Assembly: GCA_943736015.1 (NCBI GenBank)
Contig: OX031064.1
Coordinates: forward strand, 29,759,361-29,823,360
From: Tridacna crocea
Taxonomy: Eukaryota > Mollusca > Bivalvia > Cardiida > Cardiidae
Length of the DNA stretch: 64,000 bases
Direction of reading: 5' to 3'
The notes under the pieces: model-generated
Databases searched by the model: none
What the model was told of the DNA's origin: nothing
What the model saw: only the letters and a program-made list of their open reading frames with translations
Shown here: positions 2,028 through 63,821 of the stretch, piece after piece
How the letters are laid out: every line of letters starts with the position of its first letter
Numbering within the stretch: position 1 is the first letter of the stretch
Made by a program: the position numbers and the translations under genes

Positions 2028-2318
2028 GTTTGGTGTTTAACCGATTTCAACATTATTTCAGTTATATCGCGGCGGCCTATCCAAGCGTTCCTGGAGTCTC
2101 TTTTACCAATACTTCGCACAGTTTTCCTTCGAAGCCACTGGCACATAATCATCGTCGAGACAATGGTCAGCGGTGGGAGAGGAATGAATCCGTTAGCAGT
2201 GACCATCATCAATCCTTGGGAAGAAATTGGCCGAGCCAGGGGGTCGTAGCCAGGGATCGAACCCTGGACCCCGTGTCCTCAAGTCCTGCACGCTACCGGC
2301 TGAGCTACAGGGGCTCGG
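2028..2318 (-). mobile_element. tRNA-derived SINE, near complete
   Basis: On the minus strand the head reads GCCCCTGTAGCTCAGCCGG (good A box) and GGTCCAGGGTTCGATCCCTG (good B box), then a body with GATTGATGATGGTCA and the tail CGATATAACTGAAATAATG. The tRNA-like 5' end makes it a Pol III-type SINE rather than a functional tRNA gene: the head continues directly into SINE body and no terminator follows. Confidence 0.8.
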
Positions 2319-2598
2319 CGCATTTAATATACATGTATACACATCAAAACAATCGATAAGTTGACAATATGAGGGAAAAGTTGTTAAACTTTCACAACAT
2401 ATATTACGGATGTTTAAGCGCATCCATATTGCGCATGTGTTTTTATCATGGGGAGTGTGAATCAAAAGTGCGTCTTTTCAAACTAAATAGATGTAGATGC
2501 GTTAGGTAGATGCACGGATGACTCTGGAATTCCTCCATGCTTAACAATAAATGCCACCCTCCAGCTTTCTCCACCGTCGGCATTTCGTGCATCACTGT

Positions 2599-2805
2599 TC
2601 TTACGAACACAGTCCGTAATAAAGAAACAAATGAATAAATATATGGCAGAGGTGAGGGACTGGGTAGGATTCGAACCATTGAACGCCCGGACGAAAGGCC
2701 AATACCTTAACAACTGAGCTAAAGAGATATCTCCCCAACGCAGTGGTTAGCTATTGTATTTAAACTAGGACAATGGCATGCATGAAGGAGTGGTCTTCCG
2801 TAACA
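2599..2805 (-). repeat. TRIM 3' LTR with tRNA-like segment
   Basis: Starts TGTTACGGAAGACC on the minus strand and ends TTCGTAAGA. Contains TTTAAATACAATA, an A-box-like TAGCTCAGTTGTTAAGG and a B-box-like GGTTCGAATCC, as in the three other LTRs of this family. Confidence 0.8.
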
Positions 2806-2808
2806 CAT

Positions 2809-2944
2809 TCCCTTTCACCTTTTGTCACAATGTTTTCTATGCCATCAAAAGGTGTCATATACACATAAGAAATGGCTTCATCCTTGCTGTTATTTAGGGT
2901 CAATTAGAGATACCATAGAAATACCTTATGGGGTAAAGAGTCAA
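2809..2944 (+). mobile_element. Half Fam-A3 MITE inside the TRIM
   Basis: Matches 8361-8470: CACAATGTTTTCTATGCCAT through CCTTATGGGGTAAAGAG. It stops in the hairpin at the left and at TCAA (a mutated TTAA, 2941-2944) at the right. In the intact TRIM the same spot reads GACTTTAAGAGGGGG, so the insertion used that TTAA. Confidence 0.75.
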
Positions 2945-3029
2945 AGTCATCATTTATTGATGAATAAAAGCCTTATTAAGCAGAAACTCCGTTTTTGGAC
3001 AACAACTGGGATTAATGGCTCAATGGCCA

Positions 3030-3047
3030 ATCCCGGACGAGCCCCCA
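3030..3047 (-). other. Primer binding site of TRIM (tRNA-Pro type)
   Basis: TGGGGGCTCGTCCGGGAT on the minus strand, directly after the LTR end, identical to the copy at 63062-63079. This is the classic sequence complementary to the 3' end of tRNA-Pro. Confidence 0.85.
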
Positions 3048-3242
3048 GCTTACAAACAATTCCGTAACAAAGAAACAAATGAACAAATGCATAGCAGAAA
3101 TAAGGAGCCGGGCAGGATTCGAACCCTAAAACGCCCGGACGATAGGCCAATACCTTAACCACTGAGCCAAAGAGACGCAGTGGTTAGGTATTGTATTTAA
3201 ATCGTGACAAAGCCATGCTTGAAGCGGGGGTCTCCCATAACA
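3048..3242 (-). repeat. TRIM 5' LTR with tRNA-like segment
   Basis: Starts TGTTATGGGAGACC and ends TTTGTAAGC on the minus strand, 195 bp. It carries TTTGGCTCAGTGGTTAAGG and GGGTTCGAATCC. About a dozen bases before the A box are missing relative to the other LTRs. Confidence 0.8.
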
Positions 3243-8822: not shown

Positions 8823-9050
8823 TTAACCCATTACCACACAATCCCTACTTTTTACGCCCCTTAGAAAGAAACCTTTAGAAAACATGTGGGAAAAGGAGAA
8901 AATGCCGGAAACCAGCATTTTCTCCTTTTCCCACAATGTTTTCTACCCTTCACAAAACAATTTTCAAATTTTCAGTCACTTTTATTTTGTCGTCTGCAAA
9001 TGCTTTCGATTTGGACAAGTCTGAAATATTGTTGTTTGGTAATGAGTTAA
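8823..9050 (-). mobile_element. Fam-A MITE, intact
   Basis: TTAACCCATTACCACACAAT to GTTTGGTAATGAGTTAA with TTAA at both ends. The right TTAA abuts the tetranucleotide array that begins at 9051. Confidence 0.9.
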
Positions 9051-10505
9051 ATGGGTAGGCAGGTGGGTGGGAAGGTAGCCTGGCAGGCAGACAGGTAGGC
9101 TCGAAGACAGGCAGATAGGTAGGTAGGAAGGTTGACTGGCATGTAGGCAAGCAATTAGGCAGGCAGACAAGTGGGCAGGCGGGCAGATAGGTAGACATGC
9201 AATTAGACTGTCCGGCAGGTAGGCAGGAAGGCAGACAGGCAGACATGCATGTAGATAGGTGGTAACACAGGCGGATAGGTAGACAGGCAGGTAGGCAGGT
9301 AGATAGATAGGTATGAAGGTAGGCAGGAAAGCAGATAGGTAGGTAGACTGGCAGGCAGACAGGTAGGCTCGAAGACAGGCAGATAGGTAGGTAGGAAGGT
9401 AGGCTGACTTGCATGTAGGCAAGCAATTAGGCAGGCAGACAAGTAGGCAGGGGGGCGGATAGGTAGACATGTAGTTAGGCTGGCAGGCAGAAGGCAGAGA
9501 GGTAGTTAGATTGGTAGGCAGGTGGGTGGGAAGGTAGGCTGGCAGGCAGATAGGTAGGCTCGAAGGCAGGCAGGTAGGAAGGTAGGAGGGTAGGCTGGCT
9601 GGCATGTAGGTAAACAAGCAGGCAGGGAGACAAGTGGGCAGGCGGGCAGATAGGTAGACATGCAAGTAGGCTGGCAGACAGGAAGGCAGGCAGACAGGTA
9701 GGCATGCACGCAGATAGGTGGTAAAGCAGGCGGATAGGTAGACAGGCAGGTAGGCAGGTAGATAGATAGGTATGAAGGTAGGCAGGCAAGCAGATAGGTA
9801 GGTAGACTGGCAGACCGGCAGGCGGGTAGAAAGGTAGGTTCTGCCCGATAGGTAGGTAGGTAAGTCGGCTGGCATGCAGAAAGGCAGGTAGGCTGGCAGA
9901 CAGGTACGTAGGTAGGCAGGCAAACAGACAGATAGGTAGGCTTCCAGACCTGCACATAGGCAGGCAGGCAGGCTGACAGGTATGTAGGTAGGCAGGCAAA
10001 CTGACAGATAGGTAGGCTTCCAGACCTGCTGGTAGGCAGACAGGCAGACATGCAGGAAGGTAGGAAGGGAAGTTACAGGCAGGCAGGCAAACAGACAGGT
10101 AGGTAGCCTTCCAGACTGGCAGGTAGGCAGGCAGACGGGCAGACAGGCAGGTAGGTAGGAAGGCAGGTAGGCAGGTAGGCTAGCAGACAGACAAGCAGGC
10201 AGGTAGACAGACAGACTGATGGGCAGGCAGGCAGGCAGATAGGTAGACAGGCAGGCAGGCAAGCAGGTAGGCAGATAGGTAGACAGGCAGGCAGGTAGAT
10301 AGGTAGACAGGCAGGCAGGTAGACAGGTAGGCTGGCAGACAGACAGGCAGGTAGACAGACAGACAGACAGATGGGCAGGCAGGCAGATAGGTAGACAGGC
10401 AGGCAGGCAGGTAGGTAGGCAGGAAGGCAGACAGGCAGGTAGGCAGGCAGGTTGGCAGGCAAGTAGATTGATAGACAAGCAGATAGGCTGGCTGGCAGGC
10501 AGACG
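9051..10505. repeat. Tetranucleotide-derived array (GGYA/GACA type), 1.45 kb
   Basis: Made of GGCA, GGTA, GACA, GATA and GGAA quartets with higher-order repetition: the block starting GGTAGGCAGGTGGGTGGGAA recurs about 470 bp later (9053 and 9523), and AGATAGATAGGTATGAAGGT also recurs at about that spacing. Because the period is 4, the minus strand is open for hundreds of codons and translates as a Cys-Leu-Pro-Ala-Tyr ladder. This is not evidence of a gene: several frames are open together and no start or domain exists. Confidence 0.95.
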
Positions 10506-11080
10506 TTACAGCGAATGCTTGCCTCGGATCGAAAGCTATCAATAATTGAAAAAAAAAAAAGATGAATGATAATAAGCGTCATGAGTTAATCAGTGGATTC
10601 TTCACTGAATTATCGATAAGGCACGCGACATTATGGAATATAGAACACGAAAGATGTTTTTTTCTTTTTTTTCCACGATATTGATTGATGTATGATGAAT
10701 TGACAGATTGGCTATTTTTTTCTCGGGTGAGCTTTAACAAGCTGGTAAAGAAAAGATCAATATTGACATCTACAGTCGATAGGAAAACATGAATAGAAGA
10801 ACTCGTGACTGTTTCAGCTAAAACAGATTTCGGACAATGTTTTACATTTGGCCGTTTCTGGATCTGTTCTGATTTTTTGCTGTTCTAGAAAAAAGCTCTG
10901 TATGTGGTATAGGATTCCGGGTATGGAACATTGAAAGGACGTTCATTGATTCCTTTGCGTTATCACAAAAGGCTTATCGGTGACTATAACAGCTGGAGAC
11001 TGAAAGCTATTCAGTATGAAATAATATTCAATTTAAAAAAGAACACCTAGGTAGTCAACTGGTAACTTACCCACAGCTAT
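10506..11080. other. No recognisable feature
   Basis: Unremarkable AT-rich sequence with a poly-A run near 10548 and no shared repeat that I can identify. Confidence 0.5.
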
Positions 11081-11815: not shown

Positions 11816-12162
11816 ACTCCGGAAAAATACTACCAACCTCAATGACGCGCGGAATTATGGGATATGGTTGCTATATAACAACTGATCCCCGATACGCTTG
11901 CGTTCGATGTACTCGCAATATCGTCTGCTACATACGGGACGCTGAGAGCGCGCGAGCAAGTCAGTCTAAAATAGTTAAAGAAGACGGTCTTAATACAGCG
12001 TTCAAGATCTTTATTTTTACTTTTACAAATTTGAAAAAGAACAACATCAACGGAAAAAAAATCTATCATTTAATGAGATCGAGAGTCTAGGTGTAATATA
12101 GGTTAATATTTAGGTTATAAATAGCTATTTAGACTAAAGTGATAATTTAGAAATACGTGATA

Positions 12163-12499
12163 ATGGATGAAAAAAGTGCTTTAAGAAACGCCGAGTTACA
12201 AGAAATGAAGTTGTTAAATGGTGACAATGGCGACTCGGCTTTCGTTGACATTCCGGATTCTTGTGCTGATGACGGAAGAGAGAAATTTATCCATAAAAAT
12301 GAAAAAGCACGAGTGATCCATGGCGATGATGTTGATGATGACGATGACGATGATGGGAGCACCACGTCGGTCAGTTCCAATGGAACACAGTCCGAAACCT
12401 GGTCTCGTGGTCTGGACTTTATTTTATCCTTACTGGGGTATGCTGTGGGACTCGGCAACCTATGGCGTTTTCCGTACTTGTGCATGAGAAATGGCGGAG
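12163..12499 (+). CDS. SLC6-family transporter, first coding exon (partial gene)
   Basis: Encodes 112 residues plus one base, then a consensus donor (GAG|GTGAGT), so the intron is phase 1. Residues 1-79 form a charged cytoplasmic N-terminus with an aspartate run at 58-64 and a Ser/Thr-rich stretch at 66-77. Residues 80-112 are the family signature: W80, a hydrophobic helix from about 84, and [15 protein letters not shown] (92-106), transmembrane helix 1 with its unwound sodium/substrate site, then CMRNGG, where SLC6 proteins continue into helix 2. SLC6 proteins are 12-helix plasma-membrane Na+/Cl- symporters for amino acids, GABA, glycine, monoamines or osmolytes. Monoamine carriers have Asp in this helix (AVDLAN); here it is Gly (AVGLGN), which argues for an amino-acid, GABA or glycine-like member or an orphan. 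Start: ATG at 12163 is the first in-frame ATG; an in-frame GTG six bases earlier is unlikely. The remaining exons were not found in the window. Confidence 0.88.
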
Positions 12500-12505
12500 G
12501 TGAGT
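12500..12505 (+). other. Splice donor of the SLC6 exon
   Basis: GTGAGT directly after AATGGCGGAG. It interrupts the conserved NGGG at the usual place between helices 1 and 2. A Fam-A MITE starts 47 bp into the intron. Confidence 0.85.
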
Positions 12506-12546
12506 TTCTTTTCTTTCGCAAATCTCCAGGAACTTTAAAATGTCGG

Positions 12547-12778
12547 TTAAAACTCTTTACCACACAATCCCGACTTTTGACGAAACCTTAGAAAGAAGCC
12601 TTTCGAAAACGTTGTGTTAAAAGGAGAAAATGCTGGTAACCAGCATTTTCTCCTTTAAATACAATGCTTTCTACCCTTCCCAAACCAAATTTCAATTTTT
12701 CAGTCACAATTATTTTGCCGTCTGCAAATGCTTTCAATTTGAACCAGTCTATAATTTTGTCGTCTGGTAAAGAGTTAT
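12547..12778 (-). mobile_element. Fam-A MITE at the start of the SLC6 intron
   Basis: TTAA, then AACTCTTTACCACACAATCC, to GTCTGGTAAAGAGTTAT. The stem carries linked changes on both sides (GTGTTAAAAGGAG with CTCCTTTAAATAC). The right TTAA has decayed to TTAT. Confidence 0.85.
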
Positions 12779-62375: not shown

Positions 62376-62589
62376 TTAACCCTTTACCACACTACCATGA
62401 GAAAGAAGCCCATTAGAAAACATTGTGGGAAAAGGAGAAAATGCTGGTAACCAGCAATTTTTCTTTTTCCCACAATGTTGTTTACCCTTCAAAAACCAAA
62501 TTTCAAATTTTCAGTTACTTTGATCTTGTCGTCTGCAGATGCTTTCGACTTGAACAAGCCTAAAATATTGTCGTTTGGTAATGAGTTAA
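62376..62589 (-). mobile_element. Fam-A MITE, intact ends
   Basis: TTAACCCTTTACCACACTAC to GTTTGGTAATGAGTTAA; 214 bp because AATCCCTACTTTTGACGCCC is missing from the short arm. Confidence 0.88.
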
Positions 62590-62853
62590 GCAAATAATAA
62601 GCTGTAAATATTTTTTTCACGCCGCAAAATAGCCCTTCTGTATATACCTCTGAAAACAATGTGCAATGCCTGCATGCAGACAACCCATTTTAAGAAATAC
62701 CCGAAAGCTGATTGTCGTTCGCCTCAACTCGTCACAAATCGGGTGATTCTGTACCTAATGGGGGGGGGGGGTTGGTTTCTATTCTGAAATAGTGCTAATC
62801 AAAAAAGATTCCAACGGAAAATTGTCACTAGTGTTTGCTTTCTTAGTGCAGTG

Positions 62854-63061
62854 TGTTACGGGCGACCACTCCTTCCTGCATGGCATATACTCCCGATTTA
62901 AATACAATACCTGGCTACTGCGTCAGGGAGATATCTCTTTGGCTCAGTGGTTAGGGTATTGGCTTTGCGTCCGGGAGTTCGGAGTTCGAATCCCGCTCCG
63001 ATCCTTATTTCTGCCATGCATTTATTCATTTGTTTCTTTGTTACGGACTTCGTTCGTAAGA
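62854..63061 (+). repeat. TRIM 5' LTR
   Basis: TGTTACGGGCGACCACTCCT to GACTTCGTTCGTAAGA. Contains TTTAAATACAATA (TATA-like, kept in all four LTRs of the family) and the tRNA-like segment described separately. Confidence 0.88.
62930..63005 (+). promoter_or_regulatory. tRNA-like Pol III promoter segment in TRIM LTR
   Basis: A box TGGCTCAGTGG (62940-62950) and B box AGTTCGAATCC (62983-62993), 32 bp apart, fit the type 2 Pol III promoter spacing. The segment does not fold as a good tRNA (the T stem is poor), so it is a tRNA relic rather than a tRNA gene. The same segment is present at 63254-63329 and, on the minus strand, in the LTRs at 2599-2805 and 3048-3242. Activity is inferred. Confidence 0.7.
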
Positions 63062-63079
63062 TGGGGGCTCGTCCGGGAT
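63062..63079 (+). other. Primer binding site (tRNA-Pro type)
   Basis: TGGGGGCTCGTCCGGGAT starts immediately after the LTR, complementary to the last 18 nt of tRNA-Pro as used by many retroelements. Confidence 0.9.
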
Positions 63080-63166
63080 TGGCCATTGAGCCATTAATCC
63101 CATTTGTTGTCCAAAATCGGACTTCCTGCCTAATAAGGCTTTGAGTCATCAATAAATGATGACTTT

Positions 63167-63175
63167 AAGAGGGGG
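63167..63175 (+). other. Polypurine tract of TRIM
   Basis: AAGAGGGGG, followed by TG and the 3' LTR. The TTAA overlapping its start (63165-63168) is the site used by the MITE in the older copy. Confidence 0.8.
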
Positions 63176-63177
63176 TG

Positions 63178-63385
63178 TGTTACGGGCGACCACTCCTTCC
63201 TGCATGGCATATACTCCCGATTTAAATACAATACCTGGCTACTGCGTCAGGGAGATATCTCTTTGGCTCAGTGGTTAGGGTATTGGCTTTGCGTCCGGGA
63301 GTTCGGAGTTCGAATCCCGCTCCGATCCTTATTTCTGCCATGCATTTATTCATTTGTTTCTTTGTTACGGACTTCGTTCGTAAGA
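63178..63385 (+). repeat. TRIM 3' LTR
   Basis: Same 208 bases as 62854-63061 by eye. The following AGTGTTACCATTATAAG is flanking DNA. Confidence 0.88.
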
Positions 63386-63620
63386 AGTGTTACCATTATA
63401 AGAAGAACGATGAAGCGGTTACTATCGCCAAAGAAATGTACCATATAGGTGCATATCATGGTACGAGATACTGCCGAGGGACTTCACCAACGGATCAACC
63501 GAGGTTTGCTGCAAGGCAAAGCACGCAAAAAAATGTTGTTTTTCCCAATTTTACTTCTTAATTACAAAATCATACGCCGGTACGAGTTATGCAGATCTGT
63601 TAATTAACCGTTCTACTGCT

Positions 63621-63821
63621 TAACTCTTCACATCCAGACCTCAAACATTTTTAGACCTGTAGAAATTGAACGCATTTCTAGCTGGCAAATTAAATGTGGC
63701 TCGAATGACAACTTATAAATTGAATCGGTATAAAATATTGTGGGAAAAAGAGAAAATGCAAATGATTGGCACTTTCTCCTTTTCCTGTTTTGTTTTCAAA
63801 GGCTTCCTCAATCGGGGTTAA
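63621..63821 (+). mobile_element. Fam-A MITE, diverged
   Basis: TTAACTCTTCACATCCAGAC to TCAATCGGGGTTAA. The hairpin tip is decayed (GCAAATGATTGGCAC). Confidence 0.7.

Follow-up and report, generated by a model that had tools for sequence, protein, structure and literature searches.

A short LTR element with tRNA-type promoter boxes in each LTR

At 62854-63385 on the forward strand of the window, the whole 64,000-nucleotide stretch of Tridacna crocea DNA analysed here, lies a compact element in which two 208-bp LTRs enclose an interior of 116 bp. The 5' LTR (62854..63061, TGTTACG...CGTAAGA) and the 3' LTR (63178..63385) are 100% identical, and inspection of the flanks revealed the target-site duplication (TSD) AGTG at 62850..62853 on the left and 63386..63389 on the right. 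The interior (63062..63177) opens directly after the 5' LTR with an 18-nt primer-binding site (PBS) of the tRNA-Pro type (TGGGGGCTCGTCCGGGAT, 63062..63079), which we take to be complementary to the 3' end of tRNA-Pro, and a polypurine tract (PPT; AAGAGGGGG, 63167..63175) precedes the 3' LTR. The initial annotation had read the locus as a miniature LTR retrotransposon, and all of these parts were present. The interior also contains a hairpin, AGTCATCA-ATAAA-TGATGACT (63144..63164), that holds the sole AATAAA of the element; neither AATAAA nor ATTAAA occurs in the LTR, placing this one signal upstream of the 3' LTR.

Each LTR carries, in order, a TATA-like sequence (TTTAAATA, LTR 44-51; 62897..62904 with a second copy at 63221-63228), a 10-bp palindrome (GAGATATCTC, LTR 75-84; 62928..62937 and 63252-63261), an A box with 0 mismatches to TRGYNNARNGG (TGGCTCAGTGG, LTR 87-97; 62940..62950 and 63264-63274) and a B box with 1 mismatch to GGTTCRANYCC (AGTTCGAATCC, LTR 130-140; 62983..62993 and 63307-63317). 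The two boxes start 43 nt apart and are repeated at equal depth in the 3' LTR, in agreement with the tRNA spacing that had been annotated, and TTTAAATACAATA is present in both the 5' and the 3' LTR. Among 5000 shuffles of the LTR, 7 contained an A/B pair in which neither box exceeded one mismatch, and 0 contained a pair with no more than one mismatch in total. The description of the block as tRNA-like was confirmed for its A and B boxes and not for a fold. ARAGORN found 0 tRNAs in the window and none in 10 loci, and the covariance-model scan with the Rfam tRNA model gave no match to the block at E<=10 and none at E<=5 in four loci holding diverged relatives. A cloverleaf tRNA within the LTR was ruled out by ARAGORN and the Rfam tRNA model, and no 5S or other Rfam RNA was found in the element at gathering score. 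The transcribed strand of the window element was scanned for TTTT and has none, so a canonical Pol III terminator is missing; the same lack was seen in 155 of 5000 random sequences of similar composition. As a separate observation, CGTCCGGGA is common to the LTR block (LTR 115-123) and the primer site at 63062-63079, and CGTCCGGG, a part of it, is retained in the LTRs of an older relative at 2599-3242.

Conservation was assessed in 13 LTRs less than 93% alike, the window LTR included, that had been reduced from 43 LTR sequences. Five of the 13 came from one array (L067), and the set was collected by similarity search, so LTRs without the A/B block might be missed. Within this set the A box was kept at its aligned position with at most one mismatch in 12 LTRs, the B box in 11 and both boxes in 11, and most of the block was deleted in one LTR. 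The proposal that copies carry the block inside the LTR was borne out to this extent. Neither box was better conserved than the LTR average in the 13 LTRs, with 111 of 198 offsets equally or more conserved for the A box and 60 of 198 for the B box, leaving a stronger constraint on the boxes than on the LTR unsupported by the offset comparison. The TATA-like sequence, which had been annotated as conserved, ranked first in conservation among the three motifs compared, with 19 of 201 offsets equally or more conserved. The B box reads AGTTC in the young family as opposed to GGTTC in older relatives.

Copies and age of the family

The genome searched comprises 1.049 Gb in 31 contigs. Among the matches listed, the best 40 of 553 candidates scored, 40 were full-length and near-identical, with one further partial match. 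An exact 4-bp TSD flanked 38 of these 40 fetched copies, the window copy included; L016 is a copy without one, and L018 continues into a tandem copy. The LTR pair was identical in 26 of the 40 and differed at one site in the other 14, values that describe the young end of the family, as the 40 copies are the best matches and both youth and TSD rate are biased upward. The LTR-PBS-PPT order, whose absence from other copies the initial annotation would have taken as refuting, recurs with the TSD across those fetched.

The PBS together with the next TGG occurs 2,479 times in the genome, a count that takes in other elements (partner copies, described below), and its reversed control occurs 0 times. 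The first 10 of these primer-site loci comprised five full copies (L080, L081, L083-L085), one palindromic locus (L078), one degraded locus (L079) and three partner elements (L076, L077 and L082). The older relative within the window (2599..3242, minus strand) has two LTRs that are 78-80% identical to the young LTR, the same PBS and a longer interior. Both of its LTRs contain a perfect B box (GGTTCGAATCC); one has the A box TGGCTCAGTGG and the other has TAGCTCAGTTG, with 1 mismatch. The window element is a recently active member of a very young non-autonomous family.

A gag-bearing element joined to the small element at the primer site

At L076, L077 and L082 the PBS is the same as in the small element and is accompanied by a different leader and a long gag-like frame. 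The frame at L076 contains a SCAN domain (PF02023, E 1.7e-11) and a weak zinc knuckle that falls under the cut-off (E 0.0034). Some Gypsy elements have a gag to which SCAN is related. The LTR of this partner begins TGTTATG, as judged by the onset of homology among the three loci, and ends CGTAACA five bases ahead of the primer site, termini that are close to the TGTTACG and CGTAAGA of the small element. An A/B pair was absent within 500 bp upstream of the partner PBS in 3 of 3 loci. The initial annotation had suggested looking for an autonomous relative with the same primer site, and these gag-bearing elements, known here by their gag, LTR ends and leader, are candidates for it.

Chimeras were sought genome-wide using exact patterns that span the primer site and detect PBS joins only. 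Junctions of the small-element LTR end with the partner leader or interior were found at 8 sites, 7 of which were read, and in all seven both the LTR and the partner sequence extend past the pattern. The upstream LTR measured 198-208 bp in six of the seven, and the remaining one, L086, consists of LTR 75-208 and is palindromic. Reciprocal junctions were counted by pattern only, at 4 sites, one of them just upstream of the chimera at L108. An additional chimera outside the PBS pattern, L102, was found by the palindrome pattern described below and has the order palindrome, primer site, then pieces of the partner LTR and leader. Among the chimeras L104-L107, divergence is 0-1 of 162 sites in the partner leader and 2-9 of 202-204 in the LTR. 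This pattern favours several independent joining events with a single recent lineage of the partner and stops short of proof. In L104, partner gag sequence reaches as far as about 770 bp downstream of the primer site. The 3' end of the chimera at L086 was absent from the interval 5.2-7.2 kb downstream (L091), the sole search of this kind. With 12 PBS junctions found by exact pattern, 7 of them read, there is direct evidence of recombination between the small element and a particular gag-bearing element, and on these sequences the SCAN element is the likely helper of the small element. The simplest route to the chimeras would be strand transfer at the common PBS during reverse transcription in one particle.

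Head-to-head LTR palindromes

At L078, and likewise in the pair L086/L090, an inverted LTR running from 208 to 75 takes the place of the LTR sequence upstream of position 75, with the result that two R-U5 halves are joined head to head at GAGATATCTC. The exact palindrome junction centred on LTR 75-84 was present at 44 sites genome-wide and its reversed control at 0; the self-complementary pattern lists each site twice, and 44 is the number of sites. Control junctions at two other palindromic centres of the LTR gave 0 and 0 sites, and these are imperfect controls since their centres measure 8 bp and 6 bp and the real centre 10 bp. The corresponding palindrome of an older subfamily, CTAAAGAGATATCTCTTTAG, was found at one site only.

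Fourteen of the 44 palindromes were read and 13 analysed. Of these 13, 8 allowed a TSD to be assessed (L094, L097, L101, L102 and L103 did not), and exact 4-bp TSDs were found at the outer ends in 6 of the 8: L092 (AGAC), L093 (ACAA), L098 (ATCG), L099 (TCAT), L100 (CCCA) and L078, whose TTTT is of low complexity and whose LTR end has one changed base. L095 and L096 had no exact TSD in register. Four of the six TSD-bearing palindromes are solo, without any interior. In 9 of the 13 analysed palindromes the arms matched at 94-100% across 124 aligned bases or more, and in 7 of the 13 both arms stop exactly at the LTR 3' end. The arms of L093 stop just short of the LTR end, and L103 is a larger inverted dimer whose arms extend into the interior on both sides.

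The TSDs lie at the outer ends, so the palindromic product was most likely made before integration. The palindromes look like integrated strong-stop cDNA paired at its 3' ends. A longer cDNA would present a mismatched end that could not be extended, which suggests that the copied RNA began at about LTR 75; only RNAs starting there would leave a palindrome as a trace, so other starts may be used as well. The hairpin predicted for the cDNA 3' end is weak (-0.3 kcal/mol, z 0.20), making a single folded-back cDNA an unlikely primer, and we propose pairing of two cDNAs instead. In HIV-1, strong-stop DNA is reported to prime itself. Among the papers listed in the literature searches, none was recognisable by its title and the start of its abstract as dealing with integrated palindromes of such form. 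L097 is arranged differently: its LTR runs through the B-box region (TTCGAATCCC) into an apparent tRNA-Pro primer 3' end, after which comes inverted LTR. This may reflect template switching involving the LTR B box and the primer tRNA.

Comparison with Helenus and other short elements

Helenus is a published kind of terminal-repeat retrotransposon in miniature (TRIM) with tRNA-like A and B boxes, compared in its description with Cassandra and with SINEs (Kojima 2024, PMC10886601). Its members have two LTRs, a total length of 311-1263 bp and no protein, with an A box TRGCY...YGG and a B box GGTTC (PMC10886601). The window element totals 208 + 116 + 208 bp, its stop-free frames reach 88 codons at most, both LTRs hold tRNA-like A and B boxes and the A box TGGCTCAGTGG fits TRGCY...YGG. 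Further points of likeness are a PBS for a tRNA 3' end, with Pro among those given for bivalves (PMC10886601), an interior bounded by PBS and PPT, the 4-bp TSD of animal copies (38/40 here), and hundreds to thousands of copies with tandem arrays. The Helenus block is also described as tRNA-derived by sequence similarity; ARAGORN and the Rfam tRNA model detected no such similarity in the block of the window element. The anatomy therefore places the window element in the published kind, and the suspicion in the initial annotation that such an element might already be described proved correct.

The differences concern host and evidence. The bivalves in Table 1 of that paper belong to Ostreida, Pterioida, Mytilida, Pectinida and Arcoida, and its text names Pteriomorphia only (PMC10886601), whereas the present host, Tridacna crocea (Cardiidae), lies outside that group. 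If the host is indeed a giant clam, Helenus extends beyond the bivalve group of its description and is very young there. The published evidence for an animal Helenus partner is likeness of the primer site only, with a Gypsy partner proposed, and the main text is without chimeras, palindromic insertions, transcription starts or an RNA 5' end (PMC10886601). In our analysis the partner is indicated by chimeras and not by PBS likeness. As regards Gypsy-type mobilisation, what was found here is the SCAN domain of the partner gag together with the chimeras, the link from SCAN to Gypsy being general background. As far as our searches go, the chimeras and palindromes are the new part. A meeting report of 2026 mentions the Helenus class.

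The bivalve TRIMs named biv-TRIM include heterodont copies, a likeness in host, and differ in having no unambiguous PBS (Satovic 2019, PMC6934838). Membership in biv-TRIM was rejected, as its conserved interior segment TGATCCCAAAGGAC matches the window element at best with 5 mismatches of 14. The Cassandra elements of plants are likewise TRIMs whose LTRs each contain promoter sequence of Pol III type; in Cassandra this sequence is derived from 5S rRNA, and no 5S match was found in the region of the window element. With tRNA-derived SINEs the element would share A and B boxes inside the transcript, and it differs from them in having LTRs, a PBS, a PPT and TSDs fixed at 4 bp. SINEs move by means of LINEs.

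A proposed cycle and its alternatives

In the cycle that we propose, transcription would begin at about LTR 75, which is 31 bp downstream of the first base of the TATA-like box and 12 nt upstream of the A box. With a start there, the A and B boxes would lie inside the transcript and every copy would carry its promoter along. The small-element RNA would be packaged with the RNA of an autonomous, tRNA-Pro-primed element encoding the SCAN gag, and the enzymes of this helper would reverse-transcribe and integrate it, producing 4-bp TSDs. Minus-strand strong-stop cDNAs ending at LTR 75 could pair via their self-complementary ends, be extended on each other and then be integrated through their U5 ends. 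A start near LTR 75 matches the distances predicted for both Pol II TATA and tRNA-type Pol III promoters, so its position does not separate the two polymerases, and Pol III is a candidate suggested by the boxes. On sequence grounds we consider it probable that the small element is of the Helenus (TRIMp3) kind, has an RNA 5' end at about LTR 75 and is moved in trans by a SCAN-gag helper. We also lean towards the fuller reading, in which the solo R-U5 palindromes would be MITE-like fossils of paired strong-stop cDNAs that mark the RNA start and, with the PBS chimeras, name the helper of an element whose promoter sits inside its own RNA and which a SCAN-gag retrotransposon moves in trans.

The palindromes could instead have arisen in the chromosome after insertion, by replication or repair at the short palindrome, and the chimeras by DNA recombination, in which case neither would inform on RNA or particle. 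Inverted duplication of DNA at palindromes is known, the centre here is a perfect 10-bp palindrome, and the tandem arrays indicate rearrangement at such loci, as does the larger inverted dimer with interior on both sides. A chromosomal origin fits poorly with the exact outer TSDs of six of the eight testable palindromes, four of them solo, with the precise stop of both arms at the LTR 3' end in seven of the 13, and with the 0 sites at the two other, shorter, palindromic centres. The 18-21 bp shared at the primer site are also short for ordinary homologous recombination, and we hold this origin to be quite improbable. Pairing of strong-stop cDNAs before integration remains the reading we prefer.

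The choice of promoter and the source of the boxes are the other points at which readings diverge. The element might be a TRIM of the ordinary sort in which the TATA-like box directs transcription by Pol II and the A and B boxes are either what is left of an inserted SINE or tRNA or a relic that serves no purpose. Such an element would suit the position of the TATA-like box, which begins 31 bp above the proposed RNA start, and its conservation, the highest among the three motifs. It would also suit A and B boxes conserved no more than the LTR average, the lack of TTTT on the transcribed strand and the absence of a tRNA fold by the Rfam tRNA model. It is harder to reconcile with the A box in 12 and the B box in 11 of 13 LTRs that still have at most one mismatch, with the missing AATAAA/ATTAAA in the LTR, and with the distance from the proposed start to the A box, which is that expected in tRNA genes; we judge this alternative rather unlikely. 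As to the source of the boxes, the LTR may be a chimera that arose when one particular SINE inserted into the LTR of a TRIM, and a SINE of this genome might still be recognisable as its source. A SINE insertion was put forward for Helenus (Kojima 2024, PMC10886601), and the window has another A/B-box sequence with the look of a SINE head at about 2230-2319 on the minus strand, but that head differs by eye from the LTR block, and we consider traceability to a particular SINE somewhat less likely than not. Under the proposed cycle, the palindrome centre would provide one nucleotide position at which to ask about the RNA start and polymerase of Helenus, and palindromic insertions could reveal RNA start sites of silent or unsampled elements from genomes alone.

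Other observations in the window and genome

The second A/B-box sequence (2230-2319, minus strand), of tRNA-derived SINE-head appearance, adjoins the older Helenus relative. A strong inverted repeat at 62414-62486 (CATTGTGGGAAAAGGAGAAAATGC...) gave many microRNA-like Rfam matches below gathering scores, and matches of the same kind were seen in L064, L065, L067 and L069, with similar letters at 63735-63790 of the window. A microRNA at 62414-62486 was rejected, as the matches reflect the inverted repeat and lie below gathering scores. On the minus strand, 8950-10585 holds long stop-free frames of a CLP-rich repeat (CLPACLPAYLP...) that forms a minisatellite-like array. A frame at 12151-12591 (+) resembles, by its sequence motif, an exon of a sodium/neurotransmitter transporter. 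The mitochondrial contig (C31, 29,009 bp) has two repeat arrays next to a stretch of N, one of about 70 copies of a 97-bp unit and one of about 4 copies of a 235-bp unit. A gastropod host was discarded on the evidence of this contig, whose recognisable genes, named by our own reading of the open frames, lie on one strand and include a nad6-cox3-cob-gap-nad1-cox1-atp6 block as in Keenocardium buelowi (Cardiidae).
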